Source: a virus
IMG/VR virus record: IMGVR_UViG_3300045971_000577
Coordinates: 248,001-312,000 of that record
DNA length: 64,000 nucleotides
Reading direction: 5' to 3' (one strand)
In this document: positions 7,570 to 60,784 of the stretch, in pieces
Layout of the letters: each line of letters begins with the position of its first letter
How positions within the stretch are numbered: position 1 is the first letter of the stretch
Position numbers and translations under genes: made by a program
The notes under the pieces: generated by a model
The model's database searches: none
What the model was told of the DNA's origin: nothing
What the model saw: the letters and a program-made list of their open reading frames with translations, nothing else

Positions 7570-7644
7570 TGGTGCGTCTGGAGGGAATCGAACCCTCGTC
7601 ATAGGATTTAGAATCCCGTACTCTAACCGCTGAGCTACAAACGC
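7570..7644 (-). tRNA. tRNA with CTA anticodon (amber suppressor)
   Basis: Acceptor GCGTTTG/CAGACGC, D-arm GCTC...GAGT, A26, then CGGGA-TTCTAAA-TCCTA, T-arm GAGGG-TTCGATT-CCCTC, A73 and CCA. With the D-stem closing at position 25, the anticodon loop is TTCTAAA and positions 34-36 are CTA, which reads UAG. A shift by one (TCT, Arg) leaves two mismatched stem pairs and no residue 26, so CTA is preferred, though the stem itself has one mismatch and one G-U. An in-frame UAG lies 360 nt away in the PTH2-like gene. Confidence 0.65.
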
Positions 7645-13207: not shown

Positions 13208-13233
13208 AAGAATAGGAACCGAAGTTCCTATTC
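13208..13233. terminator. Convergent hairpin terminator
   Basis: AGAATAGGAAC and GTTCCTATTCT form a perfect stem. On the minus strand the loop is the very stable C(UUCG)G tetraloop. It lies between the convergent 84-aa gene and the tmRNA and probably ends both. Confidence 0.7.
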
Positions 13234-13407
13234 TGGATTTTCTGTTGCCAGGCATTCCTGCCCCGTGGTTTACCGCTTTTTAGGCAGCAAGAGCCTCAGT
13301 GTAAAACGAATCATTTGCGTTTACTTTTTGTTTTCTTCGATTTACGGTCGTTGCTCACCGAGCGATAAGAAGCCTACTCAATACCCAGGCGATTCCGGAT
13401 CGGGCCC
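13234..13407 (-). ncRNA. ssrA: tmRNA coding piece of a permuted (two-piece) tmRNA
   Basis: The 5' end at 13407 reads GGGCCCGATCCGGAATCGCC, the counterpart of the conserved tmRNA 5' end (acceptor arm plus D-like loop). Its first 7 nt pair perfectly, with one G-U, with CGGGTCC of the acceptor piece. A small pseudoknot-like CGGT...ACCG region precedes the resume codon GCA at 13316-13318; the tag frame reads ANDSFYTEALAA and stops at TAA (13280-13282). The ALAA end is the ClpXP/ClpAP degron typical of tmRNA tags. The piece ends at the UUCG hairpin. Gene order (acceptor piece, 27-nt spacer, coding piece) is that of permuted tmRNA genes. Confidence 0.92.
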
Positions 13408-13434
13408 ATAACTAAAACTTCACAAAAGGCTTAG

Positions 13435-13489
13435 TGGTGGACCCGGGGGGATTCGAACCCCCTTGTTGAATGTCTTTCTGTTTCCTACT
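13435..13489 (-). ncRNA. ssrA: tmRNA acceptor piece
   Basis: T-arm GGGGG-TTCGAAT-CCCCC directly followed by the acceptor strand CGGGTCC, discriminator A and CCA at 13435-13437. There is no 5' acceptor strand upstream; it is supplied by the coding piece 27 nt downstream. The upstream boundary is estimated from the end of the preceding small gene. Confidence 0.88.
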
Positions 13490-13624
13490 TTACGCTGTTA
13501 TTTTCCTTAATTCTGATTCATAATAGTGTAGCAGACCTACAATAGTCATACGATCAAATCTGTTACCGTATCCTAAATGCCGTCTGTAGTAATCAATCTG
13601 TGATTCAATAAATGATTTACTCAT
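13490..13624 (-). CDS. Hypothetical protein, 44 aa
   Basis: [20 protein letters not shown]... Starts in an ATGA overlap with the smpB stop and ends just before the tmRNA acceptor piece. Helical, with many Tyr/Arg. Too short to classify; its position between smpB and ssrA suggests co-transcription. Confidence 0.5.
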   Translation of the reverse strand: MSKSFIESQIDYYRRHLGYGNRFDRMTIVGLLHYYESELRKITA

Positions 13625-14046
13625 GATAGCTTCTGACTCTTTACGATACGTCTAAGTTCGAGTTCTGTGTCTCGCTTCTTTTCCGTAGCTCGTTTGTCGT
13701 ACTCTTTCTTACCCTTTGCAAGTCCAATCGAGAGTTTGTATTTACCTCTCGTTGAATAAATCTTCAACGGCACAAGAGTTAGTCCACGTTCCTTTGTCTT
13801 ACCGATGAGACGTTGGATTTCTTTCTTATGCAAAAGCAACTTACGCGAACGGGTCATATCGTGCTCGGAGCCACCGATGTTAGCGCCCACAAGCATGATG
13901 TTACCATCCATAACTACGCAGTGAGTTCCGGCGATTGAACAGCTCTTAGCCGCAATCGCCTTTACTTCCCAGCCTTCCAGCTTCATTCCACACTCGTATT
14001 GCTCGAGTATTTCATAATCAAAGAAGGCCTTCTGATTTGAAATCAT
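13621..14046 (-). CDS. smpB: SmpB, tmRNA-binding protein
   Basis: 141 residues of SmpB length and layout: N-terminal [20 protein letters not shown] with the EVKA strand, the central [12 protein letters not shown] core, [20 protein letters not shown], and a basic C-terminal tail [20 protein letters not shown] that lies in the empty mRNA channel. SmpB binds the tRNA-like domain of tmRNA and brings it to stalled ribosomes. A permuted tmRNA lies immediately downstream, so a complete trans-translation pair is present. It overlaps the upstream GIY-YIG gene by 4 nt. Confidence 0.95.
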
Positions 14047-14810
14047 AATTTCTCTTTACAGTTATCAAAATGCCATCTATTCATCGATTCTTTACAGTTA
14101 TCAAAATGCCATCTATTCATCGATCCTTCACCGCCCGACCGTTGGCAGTGCGGGCACTCAACAGTATTTCTTTTTTTACCAAGCCTTGACAATCCGATGT
14201 TAATATTATGTTCTGCCGAATTAGGTTTACCTTTTGCTGCTAAACTCATTTTTTCACGAGTCTCTTGGCTTACTACCTTATTTCGCATTTTCTGTTTTGT
14301 TTCTTCGGACATATTTTGTTTGGCTATGCTCATCTTATATCTCGCATCATCTGACATTGTTTTGCCGATGTTAGCCTCGCGCATTTTCTGTTTTGTTTCT
14401 TCTGTCCGAATTTTACCTGTATTTTTATCACTTATTCTTTGACGAACTTCTTTGGGCATAGATTTACTAGCTAATCCGATAATTTTCCGGGTTGCTGCAG
14501 AATGACTATGACCGGATGCTCCTTCGCCGCCATCGGTTCTGTTTTCTAAAATCCCTGTGCCTAAATCTTTTCGACCATACCACCGAATCATTCTGCGTTC
14601 GATTGCAAATGCACCGAGCTCAGTTAGATTACATTCTAAAATTACAATACGTGATATATCTACAGGAGTGTGTACTCCTGTATTATTCTTTTTATTCCTA
14701 TGATCAACATAAGCTCGATCTCCTGTGCCTTTTCCGATATAGTACGGTGTGCCAACATTAGCGGTTGCCGAGTTACGTGATCTTAAATAGGCATATACAT
14801 AATAATTCAT
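14043..14810 (-). CDS. GIY-YIG homing endonuclease with NUMOD3 repeats
   Basis: 255 residues. GIY-YIG core YYVYAYLRS...[14 protein letters not shown] with [20 protein letters not shown]; then about five NUMOD3-type DNA-binding repeats of the form (S)[14 protein letters not shown]. The C-terminus ends CPHCQRSGG then a tandem duplication of about 12 residues ([12 protein letters not shown] twice), visible in DNA as a 36-bp direct repeat around 14052-14123. TATAAATA lies 5 nt before the ATG. It is inserted directly upstream of smpB, overlapping it by 4 nt. Confidence 0.88.
14052..14123 (-). repeat. Tandem 36-bp duplication in GIY-YIG C-terminus
   Basis: Two nearly identical 36-bp copies encode the WHFDNCK motif twice. 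The same C-terminal motif occurs once in the HNH gene at 45212-45862. Confidence 0.7.
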
Positions 14811-14876: not shown

Positions 14877-15545
14877 TTACCACATAAGGTCAAAGAAACC
14901 GCGTAACACCTTGTTAACGCTTCCTGTCTTTCCGCTGTTGTGATCCTTTACAACATCGTCTTGAAAACGGTATGTTTGTATCTTATCCCCGCGCATGCCA
15001 GAACCAACCTGTTCTTTGCGGCTTGAATCTAGCGCGAACTTGTGCTCTCTATGTGCGTGTGCGTTTAGTGCCTCTAGCAGGGCTTGCTTCGCCTGATCTT
15101 GGCTATTTTGCCTGGATCGACACTGTGCCGTGGCAGTTTGGCCTGTAGGCAAATACGTTATACGACACGAATTTTGATGTTTGTTGCGGTGTTGGCCGCC
15201 TGCGCCAGTACCGCTGTACCATTCTATTCTAAAATCCGAGTCTTTGAATTCGATATTACGCAATTCGGGATCAGTGATCGCAACTGTTACGGTGCTGGTA
15301 TGAACTCTGCCCTTGCGCTCGGTTGGTGGAATACGCTGTATGCGGTGCCCACCTGCTTCTTTCTCTAACTGTGATAAGTCTGCACCCTCAACTTCTATGA
15401 AAAGTTCTCCGGGGAGATTCCTTATCACGCGATTGATTCAGCCAACTCTGTCAAAGTGGCGTTGGTATGCTGCTGCAAGATCTACAGTGAATAGCTTGCT
15501 GTCTTCTCCGCCCTCAGCTGCGCGTATTTCAATAATTCTTTTCAC
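14877..15545 (-). CDS. Short RF1-type release factor with in-frame UGA at a Trp position
   Basis: Read from GTG 15543-15545 (GGAG 8 nt upstream) the frame is MKRIIEIRAAEGGEDSKLFT...YQRHFDRVG, UGA (15438-15440), INRVIRNLPGELFIEVEG... In bacterial release factors this spot is the conserved Trp of (R/G)-W, so UGA replaces UGG. The rest has GGHRIQRIPPTERKGRVHTS (a PxT-type codon-recognition motif, RF1-like, for UAA/UAG) and SGTGAGGQHRNKHQNS with the catalytic GGQ. About 222 residues; domain 1 is missing, as in PrfH-like factors. Full-length product needs UGA read-through; initiation downstream of the UGA would lose half of domain 2. Confidence 0.8.
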
Positions 15546-19426: not shown

Positions 19427-20131
19427 TTACGCAAATACGGTCATCAAGGTTACCCCGGCCTTACGGATATATATCTGCGCATAGTTGATTAGCTTATCAA
19501 CTGCTGATGCACACTTGAAACTATTATCAATACTATGGCATGTTTCGCATGCATCCGATGTAGTTGGATGCGATGCGTAGCTTGATTTACCTTTTGCATA
19601 GTTACCATCGTGGCATGTTACGCAACCTGTGGTAACACCTGCGTGGATAGCTGAGTGGCTTACATCCCAATTGTTTGTATTGTGGCAAGCCAAGCAATCA
19701 GCAGTTGTAGGAATGTGTTCTGAAGGTTTCTTTCTTGCGCCCTGACCGTTATATGTTGCATTATGGCAAGCGTCACATCTCATTGAGGCAACTGAGGTAT
19801 GGCTCATATGCGGACTCACGAATGTTGTTGTGGTGTGGCACGAAGAACATTCAACAATAGTGGTCGGAATATGTCCAGTCGAAAAACCCATCGCCATGTA
19901 TGGTGTAGTACCTGTGTGGCAAATGGTGCATTGGCGCGGAGTACCAACGAATATACCAGCCTTGTGGCAAGATGCGCATGTGCTACATTTGCCTGTCGAT
20001 AGGTGTGCGCCGGTTAGAGGCCACATTGGGTGAGATTGTTCGTACATGGTGCATTCAGCAGCTGATGCCGATACCGGTGATAGTAGTGTTATAAAGGCTA
20101 CTACGATAGCAGCAAGAAAGCGTGAAATCAT
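19427..20131 (-). CDS. Secreted seven-haem c-type cytochrome
   Basis: 234 residues from ATG 20129-20131, chosen because GGAGAAG precedes it and a clean Sec signal follows (MISRFLAAIVVAFITLLSPV, cleavage near SASAAE). Seven CXXCH haem-c motifs occur: CASCH, CTICH, CSSCH, CDACH, CLACH, CVTCH, CETCH, spaced about 20-35 residues with conserved H-(I/V)PTT-x-C phrases that supply distal His ligands, as in bacterial multihaem electron-transfer proteins. Periplasmic or extracellular electron carrier expected. It directly follows the outer-membrane barrel gene (41 nt) and ends at a strong terminator. Multihaem cytochromes are very unusual in phage. Confidence 0.88.
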   Translation of the reverse strand: MISRFLAAIVVAFITLLSPVSASAAECTMYEQSHPMWPLTGAHLSTGKCSTCASCHKAGIFVGTPRQCTICHTGTTPYMAMGFSTGHIPTTIVECSSCHTTTTFVSPHMSHTSVASMRCDACHNATYNGQGARKKPSEHIPTTADCLACHNTNNWDVSHSAIHAGVTTGCVTCHDGNYAKGKSSYASHPTTSDACETCHSIDNSFKCASAVDKLINYAQIYIRKAGVTLMTVFA

Positions 20132-20153
20132 GACTTCTCCAAAAATATAGAAG

Positions 20154-20161
20154 TATTTATC
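20154..20161 (-). promoter_or_regulatory. Late-type promoter box for cytochrome gene
   Basis: GATAAATA on the minus strand 22 nt before the cytochrome ATG, just before the end of the barrel gene. Confidence 0.5.
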
Positions 20162-20172
20162 AAAGGATGCAC

Positions 20173-21825
20173 TCAAAATTCCTTTCTGGCACCAATAAAA
20201 TACGAAACTGATGTCTTCTTAGAATTGAGTAATGCCAATCTATCTATCGCATGCATATTTGAGATAGATGCCTGACCTTCGATTGATATATCATCGTTTA
20301 TTTTTTTGCTTGCCTTGACTGAGATAGTGGATGAACTTGAGGAAATATTTGCTGTTGAATGATGTTCGAATCTCAAAACACCCTCGGTTCGTATCTCACC
20401 AAACGTCTCGTTCAACACAAATGCACCGTACACGGACTTAGTGTTCGATGACGAAGAGATACTTGTCATAAAGATTCCAGTAGAATCTGCAGACATTATT
20501 TTCGACACAAATAAGTGAGCGTCGAGTGTTATTCTTGCATCACCGGGCTGATTATTTACAGAAGACATGCTAGAAAATTGAGTTCCTAAATATCCTATAA
20601 GATTAGGGGCCAGTGTTGTACTGCTACCAATAACAAATGTGGATACAATAGGAGTATGGTCCCTGACATAATTCACAATGTCGTTATCACTAAAACTTTG
20701 CCGTATTTCGCGAATATTCGAAAACTGTCTTAGCAGTTGAGTATCTAATCCCATGTTCAAAGCCTTATCGGCTGTCAATATCGGGGATCGTCTAATATCA
20801 GCTAGGGTATATATGGTCGTATTTCCTAACGGAAACGAATATTGCACCAAAATAAAATTCAGCCGGCTGTATATCGTGTCGAACTCAGATATCGATGTTA
20901 AAATTCTACCGGCCTTGAATGATCTATATTCAAACCCTATAGCATCTCGTTCTGTAAATCCATCTACAGTCTGTCTATTCACATACATGTCGATATAGCT
21001 ACTATCATCAATCTTTTTTTCAAGGGATGCACCAAAAAATCTCTTTCGCATGAAGGAACTTTCAGGTGTACCTGCAGACAGGGAACCGGTAAGATCTTCT
21101 TGTAATCTATACTTCACCAATACTCCGTCAAACTGACCGGTTGATGCATTTATAGATGATTGTCGTCCAATCTTTATGCTGTATCTGTCAAGCGTATCTT
21201 CGTATTCAGCTGAAAATATTCTGACATTATGCTGATTATTTGTTAAGTTATGAAAGTTTTCTCTATCTGTTGCCCTAAAAACTATTGTAAGTTGGCGATT
21301 GTCTTCGCGGAAGAATCCGCGTGCCCTAATATTTGTTGTCAGCCTAACAATAGAGTCTGATGAGGTTAGGTATGTAGAAACAGACCCATCTACTTTTCTT
21401 TCAGACCCAGTCTTTGATACGTTAGGCTTAGTCCTATCTACTGGCGGGGCGGCTGGCGCTGCTATTTCAAGCGCGATAAGTTTATACTTTATTCTCTGAG
21501 CTGCTTGTGAATTCGGATATAAAGATAGATAAAGTTGACTTTCGATCTTTGCTTTTTTGAATTGTTTTGTCAATTCGTATGCTTCGATAATCAATTCGTG
21601 CGCTTCTTGTTGAAACTCTGTAGGTACCAGCAGTATCTCGTTCAATATTTCTATTGCGGCTGCTGCGTTATTACCTGCCTTTACTAATGAGCGCGCCTCT
21701 TCCATCATAACCGACGGTGCCCGCGATGTTATTATCGTTTCTTCAGCATGTGACACCGATACTGTGTGTAAAAATACAACAATAGACAGAATGCGAAGTA
21801 CACATAGAAGATTATTAGATTTCAT
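20173..21825 (-). CDS. Outer-membrane beta-barrel protein with TPR-like N-terminus
   Basis: About 550 residues. A Sec signal (MKSNNLLCVLRILSIVVFLH...VSHAEE) is followed by a helical TPR-like segment of about 90 residues (ARSLVKAGNNAAAAIEILNE...), an Ala/Pro linker, and about 400 residues of alternating amphipathic strands ending in Phe (FIGARKEF), the BAM signal of outer-membrane barrels. The arrangement recalls TPR-porins such as PgaA/BcsC and porin partners of electron conduits. With the adjacent multihaem cytochrome it could form a surface electron or binding module; this is inference. A GATAAATA box lies upstream. Confidence 0.72.
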   Translation of the reverse strand: MKSNNLLCVLRILSIVVFLHTVSVSHAEETIITSRAPSVMMEEARSLVKAGNNAAAAIEILNEILLVPTEFQQEAHELIIEAYELTKQFKKAKIESQLYLSLYPNSQAAQRIKYKLIALEIAAPAAPPVDRTKPNVSKTGSERKVDGSVSTYLTSSDSIVRLTTNIRARGFFREDNRQLTIVFRATDRENFHNLTNNQHNVRIFSAEYEDTLDRYSIKIGRQSSINASTGQFDGVLVKYRLQEDLTGSLSAGTPESSFMRKRFFGASLEKKIDDSSYIDMYVNRQTVDGFTERDAIGFEYRSFKAGRILTSISEFDTIYSRLNFILVQYSFPLGNTTIYTLADIRRSPILTADKALNMGLDTQLLRQFSNIREIRQSFSDNDIVNYVRDHTPIVSTFVIGSSTTLAPNLIGYLGTQFSSMSSVNNQPGDARITLDAHLFVSKIMSADSTGIFMTSISSSSNTKSVYGAFVLNETFGEIRTEGVLRFEHHSTANISSSSSTISVKASKKINDDISIEGQASISNMHAIDRLALLNSKKTSVSYFIGARKEF

Positions 21826-21837
21826 TTTATACAAATG

Positions 21838-59611: not shown

Positions 59612-60784
59612 TTAATAAAACTTCAATGTCGAGCTGTCAATACCAACCTTCGACAAATAGTCAGCTGCGTTACCGAAGCTGTTTGCTGTGTTAGTAAGTT
59701 CTAGGTAGCCGTAACGTGTCATGAACGATACAACTGGTTCGAACGTTTGTGGATCCATAACTGGACCGACGCTCATCAATGGAATGTATGGGCAGTAGTA
59801 AGCTGCGGCGTCAGTTTCTGTAGGACCCTTGTAACCCATAAGGATTGGGTCGCCATCGCTAGCGTACTGGTTGACATACACGCGCATTGTGCTGTTCAAT
59901 GTACCAACAAACTTTGTGTTTGTAGGTGCTTCGAATGTACCTTCTGTGGTACGAGCAAACGACGATGTTGTTGCAGACTGAAGAATTGTCAACGCTGTTG
60001 GCGAAACAACTGCCCAGTTAGCAGCACCACGACGTGTGCGTGCAGCAATCAAGTTGGCCTGCTGGTTGATCATAACTGCTAGCGCAGCCATTTCATCACC
60101 AACGTATGTAGCTGTACCAGATACAGCGGCTTGGTTGAATGTTGTTGGAGCGACAGGAACTAGAGCGCCTAGCTTGTAGAGCATTTCCTGGTCGATTTCA
60201 ACTGTGATTTCTTGTGCAAGAGCTTGCATGATTTCAGCTTCGATGTCGATACCGTGAATAGCATTAGCATCTTGAGCGGCTTCGAATGTCCAACGAGCAG
60301 ATAGTCTGCGTGTCTTAGCTTCGACAGTCTCTTTCAAGATCTGAATGCTCATCTTGTTACCTGGTACACCTTCCATACGTGCTGTAGAAGCAGCAGCAGG
60401 GTCAGCTTGAACTTCGTTACCCGAATATGCCTTAGCAATTTCGAATGGACCAAGAGCTTCTGTACCAGCTGTTACACCAGCGGCTGTGTTTGCATAGCGA
60501 ACACGAAGAGTGTGGATCTGACCGACGGGGCCTGTCATTGGCTGAACGCCCATGATTTCGTTAGCGATAACGGTAGGCATAACACGACGGATTAGGGGTA
60601 GCATCACCTTGTTTAGTACAGCGATGTTACCAGCTTGTGTAGCACCTGCGGTTGCCGATTCAGCCAAGTAACGACGAGTGTTTTCAAACACGACGTCCAT
60701 GGACTGTCTACGGGTACCCGAAAGGCCTTCTAGAAGGGCTTCTTTTGTTGCGCCCCAGTTTGATTCAAATAGCTTTGTTGCCAT
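59612..60784 (-). CDS. gp23: Major capsid protein, gp23-like
   Basis: 390 residues. MATKLFESNWGATKEALLEG with RRYLAE-SATAG, a match to the gp21 cleavage rule (L-x-E), so the first ~42 residues are likely removed in maturation. VLPLIRRVMPTVIANEIMGV QPMTG, then QIHTLRVRY and KTRRLSARWTFEAAQDANAI-HG, PYIPLMSVGPVMDPQTFEPV and MTRYGYLEL are gp23/HK97-fold markers. Shorter than T4 gp23 (521 aa). Located last in the 67-21-22-23 order, with its own terminator. Confidence 0.93.
   Translation of the reverse strand: MATKLFESNWGATKEALLEGLSGTRRQSMDVVFENTRRYLAESATAGATQAGNIAVLNKVMLPLIRRVMPTVIANEIMGVQPMTGPVGQIHTLRVRYANTAAGVTAGTEALGPFEIAKAYSGNEVQADPAAASTARMEGVPGNKMSIQILKETVEAKTRRLSARWTFEAAQDANAIHGIDIEAEIMQALAQEITVEIDQEMLYKLGALVPVAPTTFNQAAVSGTATYVGDEMAALAVMINQQANLIAARTRRGAANWAVVSPTALTILQSATTSSFARTTEGTFEAPTNTKFVGTLNSTMRVYVNQYASDGDPILMGYKGPTETDAAAYYCPYIPLMSVGPVMDPQTFEPVVSFMTRYGYLELTNTANSFGNAADYLSKVGIDSSTLKFY

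Follow-up and report, generated by a model that had tools for sequence, protein, structure and literature searches.

The window, a 64,000-nucleotide stretch of huge-phage DNA (positions 248001-312000 of a 369,145-base IMG/VR virus record, G000), carries an RF1-like release factor gene interrupted by an in-frame UGA, an smpB gene and a permuted two-piece tmRNA gene, which probably constitute a phage-borne termination and rescue module that depends on stop-codon recoding for the synthesis of its release factor. This reading draws on anatomy, RNA pairing, conservation, synteny and the universality of the UGA, each read directly from the DNA.

The genes lie on the minus strand, in the order RF1-like factor, NUMOD3-motif ORF, smpB and permuted tmRNA. 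The release factor gene, located 0.8 kb upstream of smpB in the same array, was overlooked in the first-pass annotation, which had the site of smpB and the tmRNA right but gave the features, unmarked, as plus-strand ones, and which set a lower bound of 13234, beyond which the RNA continues to about 13209-13189 (the RF01850 and ARAGORN ends). The NUMOD3-motif ORF, of homing-endonuclease type (14043..14810, minus strand; PF07460, 35.4 bits), sits between the release factor gene and smpB, shares 4 nt with the beginning of smpB and is probably an inserted selfish gene. No DNA-level relatives were detected among 50,697 phage records, and the protein relatives in these records were distant genes for release factors or SmpB, many of which evidently come from the host.

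Elsewhere in the window, the major head protein (59612-60784, minus strand) was at least 93% identical over most of 80 retrieved viral contigs, and judging from this protein the huge-phage group of the window is widespread and well conserved. An apparently secreted protein that contains seven CXXCH haem motifs (19427-20176, minus strand), weakly similar to cytochrome c7 and DmsE-decahaem proteins, is preceded by a possible outer-membrane barrel protein of 553 aa (20173-21834, minus strand); as a phage electron-transfer pair the two would be unusual.

The smpB gene and the two-piece tmRNA

The smpB gene (14046-13621, minus strand) encodes an SsrA-binding protein of 141 aa, and the ORF was whole, as the first-pass annotation had described it, upstream of the tmRNA acceptor piece. 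The product scored 156.5 bits with PF01668, 147.2 with TIGR00086 (cut-off 119.1) and 160.2 with NF003843 (cut-off 130), and it matched SmpB chains in the PDB over residues 3-136 (E 3.5e-32), with a full OB-fold and a basic C-terminal tail in which the DKR motif is intact. In the record with the closest SmpB relative (G001), a GOLLD RNA (RF02032, 212 bits) was found about 2.5 kb downstream of smpB, at L002 5866-6284 (plus strand); a match in G002 was sub-threshold, and G000 contained no GOLLD RNA.

The permuted tmRNA was recovered by the Rfam covariance models tmRNA_permuted, RF04321 (89.6 bits, cut-off 47, E 6.6e-16; 13496-13280, minus strand), and beta_tmRNA, RF01850 (87.7 bits, cut-off 84; 13535-13209, minus strand), and ARAGORN called a tmRNA* at 13528-13189 with the tag ANDSFYTEALAA and the stop UAA; our own pairing checks concurred. 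The acceptor piece (13435..13500, minus strand, ends approximate) contains a P2 strand, a T arm (GGGGG-UUCGAAU-CCCCC), the acceptor strand CGGGUCC, A73 and an encoded CCA, with CGGGUCC-A-CCA occupying 13445-13435. It is separated by a 27-nt spacer (13434-13408, minus strand) from the coding piece (13209..13407, minus strand; the 3' end is 13209 by RF01850 and 13189 by ARAGORN), which begins with GGGCCCG at 13407 and contains a P2 strand, a tag ORF running from GCA to UAA and a 3' helix. The tag ORF (13318-13280, minus strand) encodes the 12-aa tag, and its frame closes with the stop that had been claimed for it.

GGGCCCG and CGGGUCC form 7/7 pairs, including G3.U70, across the spacer, which bears out the pairing and the 27-nt distance reported at first reading. 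Cofolding of the two pieces gave 26 inter-piece pairs, of which 7 belong to the acceptor stem and 19 to P2, with a gain of -14.4 kcal/mol against -6.5 +/- 3.5 for shuffled sequences, about 2.3 s.d. better. The 7/7 acceptor pairs and G3.U70 were kept across 8 acceptor sequences in 18 parsed phage relatives, a covariation to be expected of a working alanine-accepting RNA. The proposal of a complete rescue pair in the phage held up, in that all tested functional features of tmRNA and SmpB are intact, whereas the idea that the source lineage can be told from the two-piece form was not established, because RF01850 barely passes its cut-off and the generic RF04321 scores about the same.

The window tmRNA shares with the RNAs of RF04321 and RF01850 the T arm, the G3.U70 acceptor, the encoded CCA, the inter-piece P2 and the UAA-ended tag ORF. 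It differs from the usual permuted tmRNA in having the D-loop segment GGAAUCGCC instead of GGUUUCGAC, in its location in a huge phage that has an smpB gene as well, and in its 12-aa tag. Long tags in four relatives (L023, L123, L131 and L133) have a common (L/F)DLSA(L/F).D-like stretch, as in ANNVSTEFASFDLSAFADAEVAFA and ANAITTETALDLSALADSDMMLLAA, and some long tags of relatives lack the usual AA end, so the fate of the tagged proteins may differ.

The tmRNA/SmpB pair by itself is not unprecedented, since tmRNA, its two-piece form and SmpB have each been described in phages before. Al-Shayeb et al. 2020 reported huge phages with tmRNA and SmpB (PMC7162821), the Melnitz paper lists 53 phage tmRNA structures of the two-piece form (PMC9004378), and RF04321 unites the three permuted tmRNA models (PMC11915505). 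The systems in the first two papers are likewise phage-borne parts of trans-translation; the window differs from them in that its parts are adjacent, its tmRNA is permuted and a UGA-interrupted release factor gene lies nearby. Among 30 relatives that carry this release factor, permuted tmRNA was found in 19 and SmpB in only 5, indicating that most of them must borrow SmpB from the host.

The RF1-like release factor gene and its possible link to the tmRNA

The release factor gene (14877..15545, minus strand) encodes 222 aa with one readthrough. The frame opens with a GTG at 15545 after GGAG, runs for 35 codons to a UGA (15440-15438, minus strand; context GGC UGA A) and goes on without a change of frame through the GGQ domain to the final TAA at 14877. 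The product lacks domain 1 and contains the PPT (PxT) and GGQ motifs of RF1, and it matched TIGR00019, PF00472 and PF03462. With the UGA read as Trp, the phmmer alignment to RF1 (E 1.2e-37) began where domain 2 starts and ran through to the end, and the UGA codon fell at the position of RF1's invariant Trp, aligning with the Trp of the aligned RF1 structures. An AlphaFold model of the readthrough product, built with 40 aligned relatives, folded as one RF1 (pLDDT 88), and its best PDB match was ribosome-bound RF1 (TM 0.90).

The window factor resembles bacterial RF1 (prfA) in domains 2-4, the PxT and GGQ motifs and the fold, but it differs in the absence of domain 1, in its in-frame UGA and in a TIGR00019 score of 143 bits against the 423-bit cut-off for full-length prfA. 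PrfH (RF-H) is likewise a class-I release factor without domain 1; a PrfH/RtcB identity was rejected, as the PrfH model TIGR03072 gave 39 bits against a cut-off of 166.65, PPT is retained, and we found no frame interruption of PrfH reported in the literature consulted. Like prfB (RF2), the gene would have its expression gated by its own in-frame stop; unlike prfB, it lacks the combined Shine-Dalgarno (SD) and CUU-stop site of the +1 frameshift, carries a same-frame UGA for readthrough instead, and specifies an RF1-like product. A viral precedent is the eRF1-like gene R726/mg280 of Mimivirus and Megavirus, which needs UGA readthrough plus a frameshift (PMC3521657). Both are viral release factors requiring UGA readthrough, although R726/mg280 is of eukaryotic/archaeal type and belongs to an amoeba virus, whereas the phage gene is of bacterial RF1 type.

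The release factor and tmRNA genes were close neighbours on one strand, 25-1400 nt apart, in six records (the window, G001, G007, G008, G009 and G011), and the order RF-smpB-tmRNA recurred in G011, with tRNA genes between the release factor gene and smpB. Among records over 200 kb, permuted tmRNA was present in 13/13 with the release factor and in 1/7 without it (G003, G034, G040 and four named huge phages), the records being few and related and the four named phages having been scored with stricter filters. The adjacency, the repeated gene order and, small and related as the sample is, the co-occurrence argue against an alternative, that only tmRNA/SmpB matters, as an ordinary host-derived rescue set recycling ribosomes, and that the release factor is an unrelated neighbour. 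This alternative, which we consider possible yet rather unlikely, is favoured by the prior reports of phage tmRNA and SmpB cited above, by the permuted tmRNA without the release factor in G040, a related 347-kb phage, by the usual absence of SmpB, and by the distance between the release factor and tmRNA genes, which in most phages is tens to hundreds of kb. Because the genes are mostly far apart, because G040 has the tmRNA alone and because the records are few and related, the functional link of the release factor with the tmRNA is suggestive only.

Conservation of the UGA and recoding in relatives

Two scans of viral contigs yielded 160 loci, many contigs having been fetched twice. TGA stood at the Trp site in all 162 loci that reached far enough upstream, 4 of them bacterial, corresponding to 95 distinct proteins after collapsing; no TAA, TAG or TGG was found at this site in the clade, except for a TGG in one frameshift copy from Hahella. 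The Gly codon preceding the UGA was GGC in 68/86 contexts, compared with 30% of Gly codons elsewhere in these genes, and the base after the UGA was never T, though 11% of the codons start with T; the sequences are related, so that p-values for these contexts overstate significance.

In the genomes of Thalassospira, Jiella, Sphingomonas (a MAG) and Gemmobacter, the UGA-bearing gene provided a third class-I factor in addition to ordinary, uninterrupted genes for RF1 and RF2, and plasmids of Bosea and Rhizobium also carried it, with the UGA at the identical place. It was present in 0/384 further alphaproteobacterial genomes, suggesting that it is sporadic, and the bacterial copies are possibly phage-derived. 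The Hahella MAG copy, with TGG at the Trp site, requires a +1 shift at a CTT-TAG-C located 18 nt beyond it. In effect this copy is a natural control, pointing to UGA standing for Trp and to recoding kept by another route.

A relative on a Variovorax plasmid carries its in-frame UGA at a different place in the gene and is annotated by PGAP as two CDSs (L337 1324-1494 and 1510-2028); databases probably hold many release factor genes split in this way. Its viral relatives formed a sister family of 53 loci, which were counted together with the Hahella copy. A +1 shift was required in 37 loci (CTT-TGA in 28, CTT-TAG in 8 and CTT-TAA in 1), a same-frame UGA was present in 11, and 6 were not parsed. 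Most shift sites had an SD-like GGAGG three bases upstream of CTT, giving a prfB-type GGAGG-NNN-CTT-TGA/TAG/TAA cassette. The same GGAGG-CTT-stop cassette was found in the 485-kb phage LR745208; LR756502 and LR745206 had in-frame UGAs, and LR756511 had an open gene. As judged from these genes, recoding is the rule among accessory RF1-like factors, LR756511 being the one exception seen. The shift sites of the sister family and the UGAs placed elsewhere in the Variovorax and huge-phage genes look like separate routes to one outcome, which favours recoding as the way in which the window factor is made.

The range of interrupting stops, mostly UGA over the two families, with UAG and UAA as additional stops in the frameshift group, would fit an accessory factor that reads all three stops, including UGA, and regulates itself exactly like RF2. 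We hold this to be doubtful, as the codon-reading residues are RF1-like (PPT) in nearly all members. RF1 reads UAA and UAG, and because PxT predicts the same reading here, the factor should not terminate at its own UGA and a simple RF2-type feedback does not follow. If the factor does read UGA, the feedback would be direct.

Purifying selection acted on both halves of the gene, with a dN/dS of about 0.21 before the UGA and 0.12 after it, showing that coding selection goes on in frame beyond the conserved stop, as in a readthrough gene. Together with the occurrence of TGA, and never TAA or TAG, in the 95 distinct proteins, this makes it very improbable that the gene is a pseudogene or split gene in which the UGA ends a 35-aa peptide and the remainder is dead or separately initiated. 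Such a reading agrees with the two ORFs that standard annotation gives (as in Variovorax), and a GTG that follows the UGA by 4 codons makes a re-initiated product possible for the window itself; the relative in G001, however, has no ATG, GTG or TTG in the codons right after the UGA, and domain 2 of the modelled fold includes the N-terminal strand and helix as integral elements.

Several tRNA genes bear on the decoding of stops. The window encodes a tRNA with a CUA anticodon, of amber suppressor type (7570-7644, minus strand), and its long ORFs gave no sign of TAG recoding; CUA tRNAs were also present in other relatives. Two tRNAs with UCA anticodons lie beside the permuted tmRNA (L128 2359-2435 and 2495-2571, plus strand) in G028, a 343-kb phage that also bears the UGA-interrupted release factor; the window has none. 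A special UGA-reading tRNA-Trp is characterized by a 4-bp anticodon stem, A9C and G24A (PMC13092985). In the window tRNA-Trp the stem has the normal 5 bp and position 24 is G, with only C9 matching, and tRNA-Trp genes near the relatives showed no consistent change either, so this candidate was rejected. Genome-wide recoding of TAG or TGA was rejected for the window and likewise for two further huge phages, judged on 45-kb stretches.

The weakest alternative, that a phage suppressor tRNA broadly reassigns UGA (or UAG) and that the in-frame UGA is one of many, draws on the CUA and UCA tRNAs above and is most improbable, since the standard code leaves large structural ORFs open, with no in-frame TAG, UGA is ordinarily a stop in the window, where it ends 17/56 main ORFs, smpB included, no UCA tRNA is encoded there, and a CUA tRNA is unable to read UGA.

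A model for phage control of termination and rescue

For the working of the termination and rescue module we infer RNA processing, charging, readthrough, Trp identity, codon specificity, RF2 sensing, a trigger and a benefit to the phage. The tmRNA precursor would be cut by host tRNA-processing enzymes, its two pieces would stay joined through the acceptor stem and P2, and host AlaRS would charge it with Ala via G3.U70. The tmRNA would then bind phage or host SmpB, free ribosomes on broken or read-through mRNAs and append ANDSFYTEALAA. The release factor would be made only if a ribosome inserts an amino acid at the UGA, most likely Trp from a near-cognate tRNA-Trp. Infection may disturb termination, possible causes being mRNA breakage, stop-reading tRNAs (CUA in the window, UCA in G028) and RF2 limitation; weak or slow termination at UGA by RF2 would lead to more readthrough and more RF1-like factor, although what triggers the readthrough is a guess. 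The factor, without domain 1 and with the codon-reading and GGQ domains kept, would add termination capacity, predicted from PxT to act at UAA and UAG, and tmRNA-SmpB would clear ribosomes that miss termination or run off the 3' end.

When the RF2 sequence was still to come, it had already been proposed that a bacterial release factor might regulate itself through plain readthrough of an in-frame UGA in its gene (PMC5009743). According to Atkins et al. 2016, neither RF2 genes of the readthrough type nor an RF1/UAG counterpart were known, apart from the giant amoeba virus (PMC5009743; PMC3521657), and the survey of Prince et al. 2025 saw no prfA with a programmed frameshift and no prfB motif containing TAG (PMC12421855). 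Both kinds of recoding, readthrough and frameshifting that includes TAG, appear in the RF1-like phage genes described here. No earlier report of these recoded phage genes was found in the literature searched, and a prior description is still possible.

On balance we lean towards a third kind of class-I release factor in huge phages and some proteobacteria, RF1-like, without domain 1 and with a synthesis that almost always needs stop recoding, which may read all three stops and which in phages, together with a phage tmRNA and sometimes SmpB, would amount to a self-adjusting takeover of termination and rescue. If this is true, common gene callers cut these release factor genes in two, and huge phages control translation termination through sensing stop-codon competition. 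The UGA-interrupted factor gives the phage tmRNA/SmpB pair a concrete context, in which phage control of termination becomes testable by reporters.
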